DNA of 64,000 nt, taken from Gammaproteobacteria bacterium HGW-Gammaproteobacteria-15. Lineage in GTDB: Bacteria; Pseudomonadota; Gammaproteobacteria; Enterobacterales; Alteromonadaceae. The position numbers were made by a program, and so were the translations under genes. Where the stretch lies: positions 372,001-436,000 of the forward strand of contig PGZF01000004.1 of NCBI GenBank assembly GCA_002840125.1. The letters run 5' to 3'. Position 1 is the stretch's first letter. Every line of letters begins with the position of its first letter. This document shows, piece after piece, positions 17,875 to 23,888 of this stretch. The notes below the pieces were generated by a model that searched no databases, had not been told where the DNA came from, and worked only from the letters and a program-made list of their open reading frames with translations.

Positions 17875-20800
17875 ATGTTATTGCCAATGTTTATGAGCAC
17901 AGCAGTTACTATGAGCAGCACCTTTTTCTTCGGCGAATGGCAGGTTGAGCCGGCAGCTAATACCTTACGGCGTGGTAAACAGCTGCAGCAGCTGGAACCC
18001 AAAGCCATGGATGTACTGGTATTGTTATGTCAGCACAGCGGTGAAGTGCTAAGCAGTGATGATATTGTCAGCCAGTGCTGGCCTGCTACCGACACCGGCG
18101 ATAACCCGCTGCATAAAACCATTAACCAGCTGCGCCGGGCGCTGGGTGATACGGCTACCAGCTCCAGCTATATTGAAACCATTCGTAAACGTGGTTACCG
18201 CACCCTCGCAGAGGTGCGTTTTCCGCTGGGGCAAGAACAAAGTGCCCAGCCGCAAAGCTGGCAGGGCGGTTCACCCTTTCCGGGCTTGCAGGCCTACGAC
18301 GCACGTTACGCTAAAGTGTTTTTTGGCCGCGGCGCGCAAATTGACACCTTATTACAACGTATAGCGCAGCAGGTGCAGTATGGCCGGGCATTTTGTTTAC
18401 TGCTTGGCCCCAGTGGCAGTGGTAAATCGTCATTAATTAATGCCGGTGTTATGCCCAACCTGATGCAAAGTGGTGGCTATAACGGTATCCAGGTAATGGA
18501 CTGTACCAGCCTGGATTTAGCAGACGTCGCGCAGCAACAGTTATTTAGCAGCCTGGCCAGCGCCTTGCTGGACTGGGAGCAAGCCGGTACACCGGTGTTT
18601 GCCGGTGAAAGTGCCGACAGCCTGGCGCAGCGGCTGTTACAAAGCCCGGAGCAGGTGATCCAGCAGTGTCACACTGTGCTGACGCAACAAAGTCAGACTC
18701 GCCAGCGTTTTGCCCTGTTTGTCGACCGGCTGGAAGTGCTGCTGTCGTCCCCCCTTTTTAGCGCAGATGAACGCAAAACCTTTGTCGATTTACTCGAGCA
18801 GTTTGCCAACTCCGGCGCGGTATTGGTGTTAAGTGCCTGTCGCAATGAATTTTACCCATCTCTGGTGGCTTACCCCAGCCTGATGGCAGGCAAGGGCCGT
18901 GGCGCCCATTTCGATTTGGCCCCACCGGGCCGCGCTGAGCTGCTGCAGATGATCCGCTTACCGGCACTGGCGGCAAATTTAAGCTGGGACACCGATCCTG
19001 ACACCGCCATACCACTGGATGAAATGCTGTGCAGCGAAGCAGCCAGTAACCCCGATGCGTTGCCGATGCTGCAGTACACCCTGCAGGAACTGTATTTGCA
19101 GCGCAGCAAAGATAACCGCTTGCTGGTGTCGGTATACAAAGCACTGGGTGGTATTGAAGGCGCCATTGGCAAAAATGCCGAACAGGCTATTAAAGGTTTA
19201 ACCGCAGCGCAAAAAGCCAGCTTACCGCGGGTATTGTCGCTGCTGGTAACCCTGCGTGAAGACGAGCAAACCATTACCAGCCGCAGCGGCCGTGTGCAGC
19301 AATTGCAAACCGACGACGAGCGGGCACTGGTGCAAACCATGGTAGAGCACCGCTTGTTTGTATCGCACCTGCAAAACGGCGAGCCCTGCTTTAGCATAGC
19401 GCACGAAGCACTGCTGCGGCGCTGGCCGAGGGCAACGGCCTGGATCACCGAACACCATGACAGTTTAAGTGTAAAAAGCCGTTTGCATCATTTAACCAAC
19501 CGCTGGCAGGCTGAGGGCAAAAACAGCGCCTATCTGCTGGCAGAAGGTAAACCGCTGCAAGAGGCCCTGCTGTTGGCAAACAACAGGTTATTTCAGCTTG
19601 ATACAGAAGAAAGTGGCTTTATTCAGGCGTCAGCAAAAAAAGCCCGCATGCTGCGCTGGGGCCGGCGAATGACTGTCGCGTTATTGTGTGTACTAACCTT
19701 TACTGCGGTAATGATGAGTTTCAAAAGTTTTGAAGCCGAGCAGCAAGCCCAGCAAAAGCGGCTGGCCGCCGAAAACCTGCTCGGTTTTATGGTGGGCGAG
19801 TTCGCCGATAAACTGCGCAGCATAGGCCGGATGGACTTACTCGATGGTATCAGCAATAAGGCGCTGGAGTATTTTAGTGATTTCTCTTCTGCGAATGATC
19901 ATTTAACTGCTGAAGCCCGCTTTAAACATGGCCAAACGCTGGAAGCGATGGGCGAAGTAGCCTATTCACGTGGCAAAATTGATGAAGCCGTTGCGGCACT
20001 GCAAGCTGCCAGAGTTAAGCTGCTTTCGGTGTTGGCTGAGCAACCCGATAATTTAGAGTTATTAAAAACCTTAGGTGCTAATGCTTTCTGGCTGGCGCAA
20101 ATTCAATATGATGCCAGCAACTGGCAGGCGGCGAAGCCAGAGTTTGAGCTGTATTACCAATACAGCGAGCGGATGTATCAGTTAGCCCCAGACGACTTAG
20201 ACGCTATTATGGAGCTGTCTTATGCCACCAACTCGCTGGGTTCACTGGCGATGGAGTTGCAGCAGTTTGATATTGCCAGAAACTACTTTGAAGAATCTTT
20301 GCGCAAAAAACTACAAGCTAAGTCTAAACAGCCAGAGAATCTTCGGTTTTTGGCTGACATAGCCAATGCACGCTCTTGGTTAGCAAGTGCTGCACAGGCA
20401 CAAGGCGATATTTTAACAGCTGTGTCAATTCATCAGCAACTACAACGCGACCTGAGGAATACAGGGAGAACTTTGGAACCTTATTTACTGGATATTCAAG
20501 CCAGTAGCTATCAGATATTAGCAAATTTATTAGGTTATCAAGGAAAAATAGCGGAAGCTCGAGCAAATGCAGAACTTGGCTTTGTAGCAATTTCTAAAGC
20601 TCTAGAGCAAGATCCGGAGAATAATATTTGGCAGAGGATAAAGTACTATTACCACTTCCAATCTCTGAAGTTTTCAAGTGAGATGGATGCTGAACAAATA
20701 GAAGAAAATATTAGACAGCAGAGCATCATGCTTAATAGTGATAAGTTTGCTTGGTCAGAGGATAGTATTAAGGATATAAAAGGCAAGCAGTGGCTTGCTG

Positions 20801-21159
20801 CGGCTGCGCTTTTAGATAACTTAGGGGAGTTTACGCAAAGCAAGCGATATGCTGGACTTGCTCAAGGTGTCTACAGCGAGCTTGTAGAGCAATACTCTGA
20901 GAATCAAGATTATATAGCGTTTTTATCGGATAGTCAGCTAGTGCAAGCGAAGGCTTTGACTGCTTCTAGTCAAAACGATGCTGCTGTTGAACTTTGTCGA
21001 CAGATACAGTCTCGTTTATCCACTATAGTGAAAAATAACAAAGACCCTCAGTACAGTATTACTTATGTCAAAGCTCTGGATTGCCTCGGTGAGCTTGATA
21101 CGCAGCCTATACTTATAAATATGTTGCAGCAAAACGAAATATTAGATATCAGATTTTAA
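17875..21159 (+). CDS. Winged-helix / STAND NTPase / transmembrane / TPR regulator
   Basis: A 1,094-residue multi-domain protein. Residues about 19-112 are an OmpR/CadC-type winged helix ([46 protein letters not shown]). Residues about 138-550 are an nSTAND1-type ATPase: entry motif [18 protein letters not shown], Walker [10 protein letters not shown] at 178-186, Walker B-like [12 protein letters not shown]. One membrane helix follows at about 597-616, then TPR-like helical repeats to the end, presumably the extracytoplasmic sensor. GC content drops sharply within the TPR part: 65% in bases 18901-18960, 35% in 20281-20340, 37% in 20701-20760. The start is uncertain (ATGs at 17875, 17887, 17893, 17911, no clear ribosome-binding site). 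Probably a membrane-bound transcription regulator; its trigger is unknown. Confidence 0.8.
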
Positions 21160-21182
21160 CCACAGCTATAAGGGAATACACA

Positions 21183-21557
21183 ATGTTAGATACAAATGGT
21201 ACCGCGACATTTTTTAAAGTGACGGTGATGCTAGAAAATGGTGAGCCAGTATTTAGTTATACCGATGTTGATGGTAAGCCTGCCACTGGCGATGTACAAA
21301 TTACTGAAGCAGGCACTATTACCTACCAACTAATTGATCGCACCGGGCAGGGGTTAAAGTTTGTTGGTGCAGCTTTTGTAACTCCATTTGATGGTATTGT
21401 TGATGCCATAACTTTAAGTGCCGATGGGCAGTTGCTGCAGATTATTGACTTAGATAAGACTATTGGATGCACTAAGTTTCAGTTTGTATTAAGTAATAGC
21501 ACTAATACATTGATGGTGTTAAGTCCGGACCCAGAAGTAATTAATCGGCCGAAATAG
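21183..21557 (+). CDS. Small protein, possibly DP-EP family, partner of the STAND regulator
   Basis: A 124-residue protein, predicted mostly beta-strand, with no signal peptide or membrane segment. It starts 23 bases after the STAND gene behind AAGGGAA, so both should share a transcript. The end reads [13 protein letters not shown]; this DPE near the C-terminus and the overall size recall the DP-EP family of small proteins seen in Alteromonadales, a family with no known function. The family call is from memory and unsure. It is AT-rich like the end of the gene before it. Confidence 0.55.
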
Positions 21558-21599
21558 CGTTCATATACTACTATCCAAAGTTGTAGGTTCATTAAATGC

Positions 21600-21620
21600 A
21601 GCCCCGTAAGGGGCTTTTTA
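21600..21620 (+). terminator. Terminator after the STAND operon
   Basis: AGCCCC (21600-21605), loop GTAA, GGGGCT (21610-21615), followed by a T-run to 21619. It closes the STAND/small-protein unit and separates it from the diguanylate cyclase gene. Confidence 0.85.
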
Positions 21621-21725: not shown

Positions 21726-22700
21726 ATGACTAATTCTAACCGCAAAAACGATCTTCGGCCGTTGGCACTGAATGACGACAGCTTATGGTCTGATGATGGC
21801 TGCAAAGATTTATCACCGGGAATGGAAGTAGGCAGTTTTATTCAGTACCTGGCTGAAGCTGTATTGGTGGTTAGCCCCGATGGCGTTATCGAGTGTGCCA
21901 ATGCCAAGGCAGCGTTATTACTTAACTGCGTAGACAAACCGATGATTGGCCAGCAATGGCCGGAGTTTTTAACGGGCCGCTGCCAGCAGCAGTATCACGG
22001 CCTGGTGAAAATGGTGGCTAAACGGGTATTGTCGCTACAGGCTGGCCCTGCTGAAATGGCGCTGTGCTGCGCCGATGGTGAAATAAAAGATATTGAGCTG
22101 TCGGTATCGTTTTTGCCTGAACCCGAAGCGCACTTAGTGCTGGTAATGCGCGATCTTACGCGCTACAAAGCCGAATATGAAAAACTGCGCCTGCAGGCTT
22201 CTACCGATGCGTTAACCGGGCTGGCTAACCGTCGTGCTTTTGACGAACAGTTGTTGCAGCAGTGGCAGCAATGTACCACTGCCAGACGACCGCTGAGTGT
22301 GGTGATTATTGATATTGATTTTTTTAAGCAGTTTAACGATCGCTACGGCCATATTCAGGGCGATGCCTGTCTGCGTAAAGTGGCCGGTGCCATAGTGCAG
22401 GCGATGCCGGTAGATGCCAAGCTGGCAGCCCGTTATGGCGGTGAAGAGTTCGCACTGATATTGCCGAACCATAATGAAATAATGGCACTGCAGGTAGCTC
22501 GTGATGTACAGCACGCCATGCGCCAGTTGCAGTTTACCGACGCTGGCTTACCTGCCACGCTAACGGTGTCAGTAAGCCAGGGTATTGCCACCGAAATTAA
22601 CGGCCAGTACCGCACCAGCATGGCATTGCTGTGTGCCGCTGACACTGCGTTATACCGCGCTAAGGCCGATGGCCGTGACTGTATTAACGCCAGTTGTTAG
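21726..22700 (+). CDS. PAS-GGDEF diguanylate cyclase
   Basis: A 324-residue cytoplasmic enzyme expected to make cyclic di-GMP from two GTP. A PAS-like sensor domain covers about residues 38-150 (YLAEAVLVVSPDGVIECANA). The GGDEF domain follows: DALTGLANRRAFDEQ, VVIIDIDFFKQFNDRYGHIQG and an intact active-site GGEEF at 238-242. The four residues where an RxxD inhibitory site would sit read VDAK, so product feedback through that site is probably absent. It has no membrane segment and no EAL domain. It is transcribed alone after a terminator. Confidence 0.9.
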   Translation: MTNSNRKNDLRPLALNDDSLWSDDGCKDLSPGMEVGSFIQYLAEAVLVVSPDGVIECANAKAALLLNCVDKPMIGQQWPEFLTGRCQQQYHGLVKMVAKRVLSLQAGPAEMALCCADGEIKDIELSVSFLPEPEAHLVLVMRDLTRYKAEYEKLRLQASTDALTGLANRRAFDEQLLQQWQQCTTARRPLSVVIIDIDFFKQFNDRYGHIQGDACLRKVAGAIVQAMPVDAKLAARYGGEEFALILPNHNEIMALQVARDVQHAMRQLQFTDAGLPATLTVSVSQGIATEINGQYRTSMALLCAADTALYRAKADGRDCINASC

Positions 22701-23033
22701 GAGGCGGCAAAGCGATTGAGTGCGATAGCCTGAAGCAAGGCGGGAGATATCGCAGGCGGTGCAGCGCATTTAGCAAAAAAATGTGCTGATAAACTTCTGA
22801 TACGGTTTTGTTGATATTTAATAAATTAATATTAATCAGTTGCTTATATTTGTCTCGTCTGAGATTTTTGATATCCGTAAAAGCTTCCAGATATGGAATA
22901 GTGTTTTAACTGGTGTTGCTAAAGGATAGCCGGTAGTACGAACGCAGCTAAGCCTCGTTTGTGCTGGTTATGCACCACCGGTATCTGCCGGTGATAACAA
23001 CACACCACTATTCTATTGTTCGGAGAGTCAGAT
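22701..23033 (+). other. Intergenic region upstream of the pectate lyase gene
   Basis: No gene is evident. Just after the cyclase gene is an imperfect hairpin (TGCGATA 22721-22727 with TATCGCA 22747-22753, inner GCC/GGC). The middle is AT-rich and may hold the promoter. Near the gene is a hairpin CACCGG/TATCTG/CCGGTG (22976-22993), a possible operator or leader structure. No confident -35/-10 pair was found. Confidence 0.4.
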
Positions 23034-23888
23034 ATGGATCACTTTTACAAACTTGCCGTTGCCACTGTGCTGCTGTTAGCCATGAGTACGCATGTTCAGG
23101 CGAATACACGCTGTAAGGCTGGGGCAACCTTCACTAATGAAACAGTAGACTGCGGCGGAACCTATGTCACGGGCGGCTCGTGTTCCGGCGATGGCGATGG
23201 CCAGTCGGCTGTAATCATTCTTAAAAATGCCACTATCAAAAATGCCAAATTTGCTCAGGGCCGGTCCAGCAAGGGGATCTGGTGTGAATCGGGTACCTGC
23301 AATGTTGACAACGTTACCTTTGACGAAGTTTGCGAAGACGCGGTCAGCACCCGTAAGGATGGGGTAACGCTGAATATTAAAAACAGCACCTTTAAGAATG
23401 TGATGAGTAAGGATAAAAGCTACGGCGGCAAGCCCGACAAGTTTATTCAGGTAAACGGTAAGAATGTGAAAGTAAATATCGAAAACTCTAACTTTCATAT
23501 TGTGCCGGCCAGTGGTTCAGTACCCGATAAAATAACCGGTAAGGCTGGTAAGGTGGTGCGTACCTGTGGCAACTGCAGTGGCAACGAAGGACCACGTACC
23601 ATCACCATGAAAAATGTAAACGTATACGGTCCGATTGATGCAATCGCCGGAGTTAATGCCATGTACCGGGGGTTAAATTCCGGTATACGCGATACTATCA
23701 CTATTACCAACCTGAAAGTGCAGGATTACCAGGCGCCCAGTGGCTCTGCGGTTAAGTCTACGCCGGAAATCTGTCAGGAGTTTGAAGGTATTGACAAGAA
23801 CAAGCATTCAGGTGATTCGCCCAAGTTGGGCCAGGCCTGGCAAACCACCAGTTGCAAAGTAAGCACAAGCAACGTTTCCAAGCTTTAA
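23034..23888 (+). CDS. Secreted pectate lyase, polysaccharide lyase family 3
   Basis: PL3 enzymes cleave polygalacturonate by calcium-dependent beta-elimination. The 284-residue protein has a signal peptide (MDHFYKLAVATVLLLAMSTHVQA) and a small parallel beta-helix typical of PL3: VIILKNATIKNAKF, GIWCESGTCNVDNVTFDEVCEDAVS, where the acidic EDA segment contributes to calcium binding, then LNIKNSTFKNV and FIQVNGKNVKVNIENS. Several cysteines suggest disulfides. The ATG at 23034 follows GGAGAG; the ATG at 23016 would add six residues before the signal peptide. It stands alone, suggesting growth on plant or algal pectin. Confidence 0.85.
   Translation: MDHFYKLAVATVLLLAMSTHVQANTRCKAGATFTNETVDCGGTYVTGGSCSGDGDGQSAVIILKNATIKNAKFAQGRSSKGIWCESGTCNVDNVTFDEVCEDAVSTRKDGVTLNIKNSTFKNVMSKDKSYGGKPDKFIQVNGKNVKVNIENSNFHIVPASGSVPDKITGKAGKVVRTCGNCSGNEGPRTITMKNVNVYGPIDAIAGVNAMYRGLNSGIRDTITITNLKVQDYQAPSGSAVKSTPEICQEFEGIDKNKHSGDSPKLGQAWQTTSCKVSTSNVSKL

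Follow-up and report, generated by a model that had tools for sequence, protein, structure and literature searches.

Why does the sensor half of a transcriptional regulator differ from species to species together with the small gene behind it, between flanks that stay nearly constant? The question is raised by a locus in the 64,000-nucleotide stretch analysed here (the window), part of one contig in the 4.68 Mb genome of Gammaproteobacteria bacterium HGW-Gammaproteobacteria-15 (GCA_002840125.1, contig PGZF01000004.1, positions 372,001 to 436,000). The locus encodes a regulator with a winged helix-turn-helix (wHTH) head, an nSTAND1 ATPase, a predicted membrane helix and TPR repeats and, 23 bases downstream, a 124-residue partner. 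An initial annotation had delimited both open reading frames (ORFs) correctly, and its core architecture and pairing hold up, but it overlooked a link to a diguanylate cyclase and a hypervariable block, and the partner that it called uncharacterised belongs to a known family with solved structures, DP-EP (PF08985). What is new here is the mosaicism of the locus: the TPR half of the regulator and the DP-EP gene change as a block. We propose, with a probability of roughly 0.43, that the regulator is a transmembrane transcription switch of the one-component type and that its sensor half, together with the DP-EP protein, would make up an exchangeable, polymorphic specificity cassette. Block variation between near-constant flanks is the pattern expected of a recognition system that discriminates variants. 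Literature searches returned no paper on this gene pair, on a link between DP-EP and STAND regulators or on allelic variation of DP-EP.

Block variation of the TPR half and the DP-EP gene

Relatives were retrieved with the regulator's own patterns, and the best 80 of 130, close relatives by choice, make up the named-locus set. They span Rheinheimera, Alishewanella, Arsukibacterium, Shewanella, Pseudoalteromonas, Paraglaciecola and their kin, with R. hassiensis the nearest at 93%, which makes a Rheinheimera-group bacterium the most likely host; all cassette comparisons are between species. Against the window, loci L047, L048 and L051 are 94 to 99% identical over regulator residues 13 to 600 and 95% identical in the GGDEF protein encoded downstream, compared with 23 to 65% over residues 791 to 1094 and 62 to 79% in DP-EP. 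The drop starts earlier in L051, at about residue 700, and L046 has the same cassette as the window. The guanine-plus-cytosine (GC) content falls from 0.52-0.57 over positions 18001-19800 to 0.38-0.42 over 20401-21600, and the TPR half has a lower GC content than the N-terminal part in 73 of 73 loci.

The three genes were compared across these 73 loci, the window plus 72 of the 80 (in the rest a gene is absent, the room is too short or the regulator frame is broken). Identity averages 63% in the N-terminal part, 29% in the C-terminal TPR half, 37% in the DP-EP body and 48% in the GGDEF protein. Seventy-four close pairs have N-terminal parts more than 90% identical; they are drawn from 44 of the 73 loci and hence are not independent. 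Among them, the TPR half falls below 70% in 63 pairs (lowest 27%), the DP-EP body below 80% in 40 and the GGDEF protein below 80% in none (lowest 82%). The starkest pair, Shewanella xiamenensis and S. decolorationis, shares 99% of the N-terminal part, 30% of the TPR half, 72% of DP-EP and 99% of the GGDEF protein.

Do the two parts of the block change together? In the six clusters that have at least three members (73 pairs), similarity of the TPR half and of DP-EP correlates at rho 0.80, a value reached by 0 of 2,000 within-cluster permutations (p 0.0005), and the partial correlation given the N-terminal part and the GGDEF protein is also 0.80. The corresponding values are -0.18 for the TPR half with the GGDEF protein and 0.05 for the GGDEF protein with DP-EP. 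In one locus (L053) compared with three others (L056, L057 and L088), the block is closer (TPR half 91 to 92%, DP-EP 90 to 94%) than the flanks (81 to 85%). Of 14 pairs computed, most also have a higher synonymous divergence in the TPR half; for L062 and L069 it is 0.18 in the N-terminal part and 0.17 in the GGDEF gene and saturated in the TPR half and DP-EP, and several same-allele pairs have a DP-EP synonymous divergence near that of the flanks. The raised synonymous divergence in the block suggests that divergent DNA has been exchanged or old alleles have been kept.

A related subclass of six wHTH-nSTAND1 proteins of about 975 residues without DP-EP (L194-L199) served as a control and has no comparable C-terminal collapse. 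Identity per 100 residues between L195 and L196 is 78, 77, 63, 83, 86, 76, 73, 82, 71 and 61, and L198 and L199, the sole pair as close as the module pairs, stay at 80 to 98 throughout.

In the comQXP and agr systems of Gram-positive bacteria, the sensor part of a histidine kinase receptor and the signal gene co-vary between constant flanks. The same pattern of a sensor part and partner co-varying between constant flanks is found here between species, with two close pairs breaking it; unlike in comQXP and agr, the components are a STAND regulator and a beta-sandwich protein of a self-cleaving family. The cassette may confer allele-specific signalling.

Domains and predicted topology of the regulator

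The head of the regulator matches Trans_reg_C (PF00486) at residues 39-109 (E 4.9e-16, 59 bits against a cut-off of 26.2), and nSTAND1 (PF20703) follows at residues 134-551 (E 1.3e-87, 295.3 bits against a cut-off of 27.1). Conservation was counted over 91 distinct homologue rows. A few motif positions vary; the motifs RN-x-FYP and HEALLR and the RKRGYR stretch that ends the head show little or no variation, and each of the Walker A residues G178, S180, G181, G183, K184 and S186 and the Walker B residues D284 and R285, like the key wHTH residues, is kept in 90 of the 91, the remaining row being a gap. This bears out the annotated wHTH-STAND architecture with an intact Walker A, and the degeneration of head and ATPase in homologues that the annotation had named as decisive against it was not found. 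The nSTAND1 domain may act by ATP-driven oligomer switching, and the head would bind promoter DNA. A k-mer scan of 80 regulator upstream regions found enriched words, none of them clearly common across genera.

The annotated membrane helix corresponds to a single predicted hydrophobic helix: the best hydrophobic window scores above 1.6 in 88 of the 91 rows, lies at residues 540-680 in 82 and has the more positive N-terminal side in 86. The AlphaFold2 model, built from 42 homologues with residue numbering shifted by 11, is less clear, its predicted local distance difference test (pLDDT) value being below 50 around the helix. The annotated TPR repeats appear in the structure but not in the Pfam search, where all TPR families are under cut-off. 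From residue ~679 to the end the model has 18 helices, mostly of about 20 residues (block pLDDT 77-97), and its Foldseek matches are TPR superhelices and the STAND-TPR protein 6mfv. Over the whole model the mean pLDDT is 82.5 and the predicted template modelling score 0.47, the latter so low that the relative placement of domains is not readable from it. All but one of the 91 rows, that one a gap, share two cysteines of the TPR half, C1041 and C1070, which lie in blocks of mean column identity 0.30 and 0.45 and may form a disulfide outside the cell. The hydrophobic window, the charge bias and the two kept cysteines fit a TPR sensor on the outside. Two further cysteines, C52 and C68 in the head, are equally kept (90 of 91 rows, the other a gap), and no aligned paralogous wHTH stretch of the same genome carries both; a redox or metal role for them would be a guess.

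The start of the gene is uncertain. The ORF of the closest relative, L046, opens at the place of window position 17905, which makes the ATG at 17911 (M13) a possible start, and L047, L048 and L051 have the longer form.

How does this architecture compare with known regulators? The N-terminal Trans_reg_C head (CadC 5ju7 match, E 8.5e-17) and the single predicted membrane helix recall CadC and ToxR, from which the regulator differs in its STAND ATPase, placed between head and membrane, and in the TPR superhelix beyond. MalT and AfsR combine a STAND ATPase, a repeat sensor and a DNA-binding domain in soluble proteins; the regulator shares these parts and differs in its predicted membrane helix. 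We know of no co-varying partner gene for MalT or AfsR.

The DP-EP protein and its tail

The small partner scores 119.9 bits against the DP-EP profile (E 1e-34, cut-off 25). It shares 65% identity with a Shewanella protein solved under the name 'Peptidase' (PDB 3n55, 3njf-3njn), which we take to be SO1698 of Shewanella oneidensis and which has been described as an isolated self-cleaving protein, and retains its Y26, D37, K98, S114 and D116-P117. Osipiuk et al. reportedly found in 2012 (Journal of Biological Chemistry, JBC, 287:19452) that this DUF1888 protein cleaves itself and forms a Lys98-Asp116 link. In the PDB, the unchanged chain (3n55) and the Y26F chain (3njf) stop at the counterpart of D116, and chains in which alanine replaces D37, S114, D116 or P117 run to full length; 3njg and 3njj are two further cut chains, whose changes appear in no printed alignment. 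These lengths are consistent with self-cleavage of the Shewanella protein at D116-P117, and the window protein, which keeps these residues, may cleave itself too. The gene so1699 of S. oneidensis is likely this regulator, judging by its number beside SO1698. PMC2262068 places so1699, a 'transcriptional regulator', among genes that ArcA appears to repress. The FrpC self-processing module, a Ca2+-dependent RTX domain, also cleaves at Asp-Pro and links the Asp to a Lys (PMC7078468); the likeness lies in the chemistry. The DP-EP self-cleaving protein has already been tried as a biotechnology tool (PMC11655445).

Across 117 distinct DP-EP rows, the four best-kept positions all lie in the C-terminal tail: P117 in 117, D116 in 116, N121 in 114 and S114 in 112, with the qualification that the collecting profile included the tail and somewhat favoured its conservation. 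D37 is kept in 27 rows, K98 in 42 and both together in 24. The tail is near-universal, D37 and K98 mostly are not kept, and the tail seems to be of wider importance than the known cleavage machinery. In the Shewanella protein, Lys98 is presumably the residue to which Asp is linked; 30 of the 117 rows have Cys at this position, where another linkage might be possible.

The tail also occurs outside DP-EP. In three loci (L052, L106 and L122) a secreted-type subtilase, fragmented in frame in L106, and an ORF2-type chaperone lie between DP-EP and the GGDEF gene; the chaperone family (PF18492) is over cut-off in L122, just under it in L052 and found in L106 only by a custom-built profile. Among 6,910 ORFs of 98 loci, five have the tail pattern but no DP-EP match: these three ORF2-type proteins, a secreted protein in L044 that is probably DP-EP-like and a chance-like case on the opposite strand (L113). 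ORF2-type chaperones end in the DP-EP tail in 3 of 3 copies found in module loci and in 0 of 16 cases elsewhere (order sample, 148 genomes; one sub-threshold match, L218, was dropped). Because the same tail sits on an unrelated ORF2-type protein, we suggest that it is a recognised element of the module. In Aeromonas, the ORF2 C-terminus interacts with the catalytic site of the protease (PMC5638518).

A role of the tail as a genome-wide sorting tag was considered and rejected: its DNA pattern, restricted to AGY serine codons, matched in 4 of 39 genomes. The single match in the window genome, also with a looser pattern, is the DP-EP gene itself, and the match in a genome without DP-EP (G020) is internal to an unrelated ORF. 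The looser pattern matched 16 of 20 genomes, where it is uninformative, a reversed control being similar in number.

No signal peptide was seen on the adjacent DP-EP copies read, and of 126 DP-EP ORFs put through a hydropathy screen two were flagged, each of them a second copy. Six of seven second copies with a signal-like start (Table 1) bear an extra N-terminal stretch of about 110 residues; those in L061 and L092 are cut at the N-terminus. Of 398 genomes sampled from the phylum, 7 carry DP-EP, and these all belong to the same order.

Gene neighbourhood and linkage

In all 79 named loci with room, DP-EP lies directly downstream of the regulator on the same strand, at gaps of -47 to 462 nucleotides (median 22); the 80th locus (L074) ends inside the regulator gene. 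The initial annotation, which had named lack of a conserved neighbourhood as evidence against itself, thus stands on this point. In a family sample of 147 genomes, all 21 full-length regulator homologues (above 1,400 bits) have DP-EP adjoining; 16 are recognised by Pfam, and five (G047, G054, G089, G117 and G141) are divergent forms with the tail, found in the DNA right downstream. Conversely, 16 of the 18 family genomes with a DP-EP match have a regulator directly upstream, counting one locus (L038) that the script scored as non-adjacent since its longest DP-EP frame starts inside the regulator gene. Beside the two others no regulator was seen: one match lies near a contig edge (G107, L044) and one is a partial copy with a stop (G069, L045). 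At the order level, 14 of 14 further fetched loci, out of 21 new matches, have DP-EP adjoining, and the distant family regulators of G077 (543 bits) and G103 (448 bits) are also accompanied by it; eight genomes with weaker regulator matches were left out of the locus reading. Nine other fetched relatives are without DP-EP (L194-L200, L202 and L203), two of which (L200 and L203) also have no wHTH match.

The diguanylate cyclase is linked less tightly. Of the 71 named loci with room, 68 have a related gene on the same strand within 4.5 kb (the exceptions are L096, L101 and L124), as do 10 of 14 order-level loci; it was seen in none of the 7 loci of G077, G103 and the five genomes with a divergent DP-EP, one of which (L190) has little downstream DNA.

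Interpretation of the locus

How could such a locus work? The TPR half, probably periplasmic, would be the ligand-recognising part and DP-EP its cognate partner, which either is the ligand or controls ligand binding; the S-x-D-P-x-[VI]-x-N tail would serve self-processing or act as a common docking tag. The state of the ligand would govern ATP-dependent STAND assembly and thereby the clustering of wHTH heads on DNA, passing an outside signal to DNA much as the initial annotation envisaged. Outputs would be the module's own operon and nearby genes such as that of the diguanylate cyclase, tying recognition to cyclic di-GMP (c-di-GMP), and variant cassettes would distinguish matching from non-matching cells or partners.

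Several observations weigh against this reading. Similarity of DP-EP is also weakly correlated with that of the first TPRs (0.38, p 0.014) and of the N-terminal part (0.32, p 0.06), and two of the 74 close pairs break the co-variation (DP-EP at least 90%, TPR half below 60%): L069 and L072 share 95% of DP-EP but 45% of the TPR half, L108 and L115 93% but 59%. A more distant pair, L058 and L049, combines 90% in DP-EP with 38% in the TPR half. Positive selection was not detected, the NG86 ratio of nonsynonymous to synonymous divergence being below 1 in every block of 14 chosen pairs. The control subclass is small, offers one equally close pair and is itself somewhat more variable at the C-terminus, and the DNA covered around the five divergent full-length cases shows no related GGDEF gene. 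Because the TPR half and DP-EP are neighbours, linkage may suffice for the correlation, and recombination of physical neighbours alone may yield co-variation without contact. Finally, most DP-EP copies carry no signal peptide and the TPR half is predicted to lie outside, such that the partners may never meet; second copies with a signal-peptide-like start (by eye), present in seven loci beside a plain copy, may or may not bridge this gap.

Could the variable half instead be an arms-race sensor for foreign molecules of phages or competitors, with DP-EP an accessory or a hitchhiker in the exchanged stretch? Variable-repeat STAND proteins act in recognition and defence, and in fungal incompatibility STAND proteins highly variable C-terminal TPR or WD repeats are read through the STAND ATPase (PMC10907252). 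The fungal N-terminal part is an effector, whereas that of the regulator is a DNA-binding head, and the linked gene here encodes a diguanylate cyclase. The TPR half does vary more than DP-EP (63 against 40 of 74 pairs), the same DP-EP occurs with different TPR halves, and the regulator matches the phage family phrog_923 (E 1.6e-22, residues 120-584 of the copy searched) and also phrog_731, both of unknown function. Set against this, DP-EP accompanies each regulator of this clade whose locus was read with room, no relative of the regulator was found in viral contigs and no match of DP-EP in phage or plasmid records. For the regulator, matches in PADLOC were confined to weak P-loop ones (mad3 1.4e-4, mad8 0.028), and the adjacent genes examined are ordinary chromosomal ones, on which grounds an Avs-like anti-phage STAND system was rejected; an arms-race role in general seems unlikely. 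Alternatively, DP-EP might be a regulated output, a self-cleaving and self-assembling protein of matrix, envelope or protein linking controlled together with c-di-GMP, and the co-variation would be linkage only. The operon layout (median gap 22 nucleotides), the Shewanella 'Peptidase' ending at the D116-aligned residue and the extra copies with signal-like starts agree with this, but few DP-EP rows keep D37 and K98 together and nearly all keep the tail, and we regard it as unlikely.

Both remaining alternatives give DP-EP an active part. RRNPP regulators are helix-turn-helix-TPR receptors with the precursor gene directly downstream, and self-cleavage at D116-P117 might release a C-terminal octapeptide that the TPR domain reads in the same way. 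Gene order, the conserved C-terminal position of the tail, the cleavage implied by PDB chain lengths and the same tail on the unrelated secreted ORF2-type protein (3 of 3 against 0 of 16) speak for it. The tail core, however, is nearly invariant across alleles and hence cannot carry a specificity that varies, D37 and K98 are not conserved, and the precursor mostly has no signal peptide, which makes this highly improbable; RRNPP membership as such was rejected, as the adjacent copies read show no signal peptide and the tail does not vary with the receptor. DP-EP acting in the cytoplasm, as an inhibitor or protease of the regulator on its ATPase or head, would suit the close operon coupling and the prevailing lack of signal peptides, but DP-EP co-varies best with the TPR half and not with head and ATPase, and we find it quite improbable.

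Returning to the specificity cassette, a further and more doubtful step is a Gram-negative pherotype or kin recognition system, with a membrane-spanning STAND factor, a hypervariable TPR receptor outside, a co-inherited DP-EP, a c-di-GMP output and cassettes that would move between species by recombination in constant flanks. If true, a STAND switch would connect the cell envelope directly with DNA, and Shewanella, Pseudoalteromonas, Rheinheimera and their kin would possess a polymorphic recognition locus. The DP-EP self-cleaving protein gains a genetic context, and allele pairs that differ chiefly in the cassette, such as L062 and L069 with 99% identity in both the N-terminal part and the GGDEF protein, open the pairing to direct test.

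Other features of the locus

Table 1. Features of the regulator/DP-EP locus in the window (nucleotide positions) and of related loci (positions within each locus)
Feature	Position	Strand	Basis or remark
wHTH-nSTAND1-membrane helix-TPR regulator, 1094 aa	17875..21159	+	ORF, Pfam, AlphaFold2; start possibly ATG 17911
CadC-like winged-helix DNA-binding domain, residues 39-109	17989..18201	+	Pfam, alignment
nSTAND1 ATPase, residues 134-551	18274..19527	+	Pfam; Walker A 178-186, Walker B LFVDR 281-285
Predicted membrane helix, residues ~598-619, N-terminus inside	19666..19731	+	Hydropathy and charge, prediction only
Conserved juxtamembrane segment and first TPR hairpins, residues 637-790	19783..20244	+	Alignment, AlphaFold2
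Hypervariable C-terminal TPR half, residues 791-1094, low GC	20245..21156	+	Alignment, locus comparison
Variable block, TPR C-half and DP-EP gene	20245..21600	+	Locus comparison; left edge ~19900 to ~20200 by pair
DP-EP (PF08985, DUF1888) protein, 124 aa	21183..21557	+	Pfam, PDB match, alignment
C-terminal tail S114-P-D-P-E-V-I-N121	21522..21545	+	DP-EP alignment
Terminator-like stem and T tract	21600..21615	+	Stem/T-tract scan
Diguanylate cyclase, Diguanyl_cycl_sensor PF24820 (PAS-like) and GGDEF	21726..22700	+	Pfam, locus survey
Subtilase and ORF2-type chaperone	L052 9828-12078; L106 9886-12041; L122 9882-12102		
Second DP-EP copies, signal-like start	L063 9910-10668; L065 9916-10674; L075 9882-10637; L083 9655-10440; L091 9755-10495; L174 7227-7733; L183 5344-6108		
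Transposase-like genes	L050 10274-10969; L062 9939-11300; L096 10094-11104; L178 7695-8651; L184 2312-3283		

The terminator annotated after the small gene corresponds to a terminator-like stem and T tract, but the scan alone is weak (8 such sites in the region against 4.9 expected from shuffles). Transposase-like genes, of REP-associated type by eye, lie downstream of DP-EP in five loci, in three of them between DP-EP and the GGDEF gene, as if the right flank of the module resembled an insertion site. In the control subclass, all six loci carry a divergently transcribed gene for a protein of 211 to 216 residues with a signal-like start, WD40/TolB-like by eye. Near the module in the window, a pectate-lyase-like protein (PF03211) is encoded at 23016-23888.

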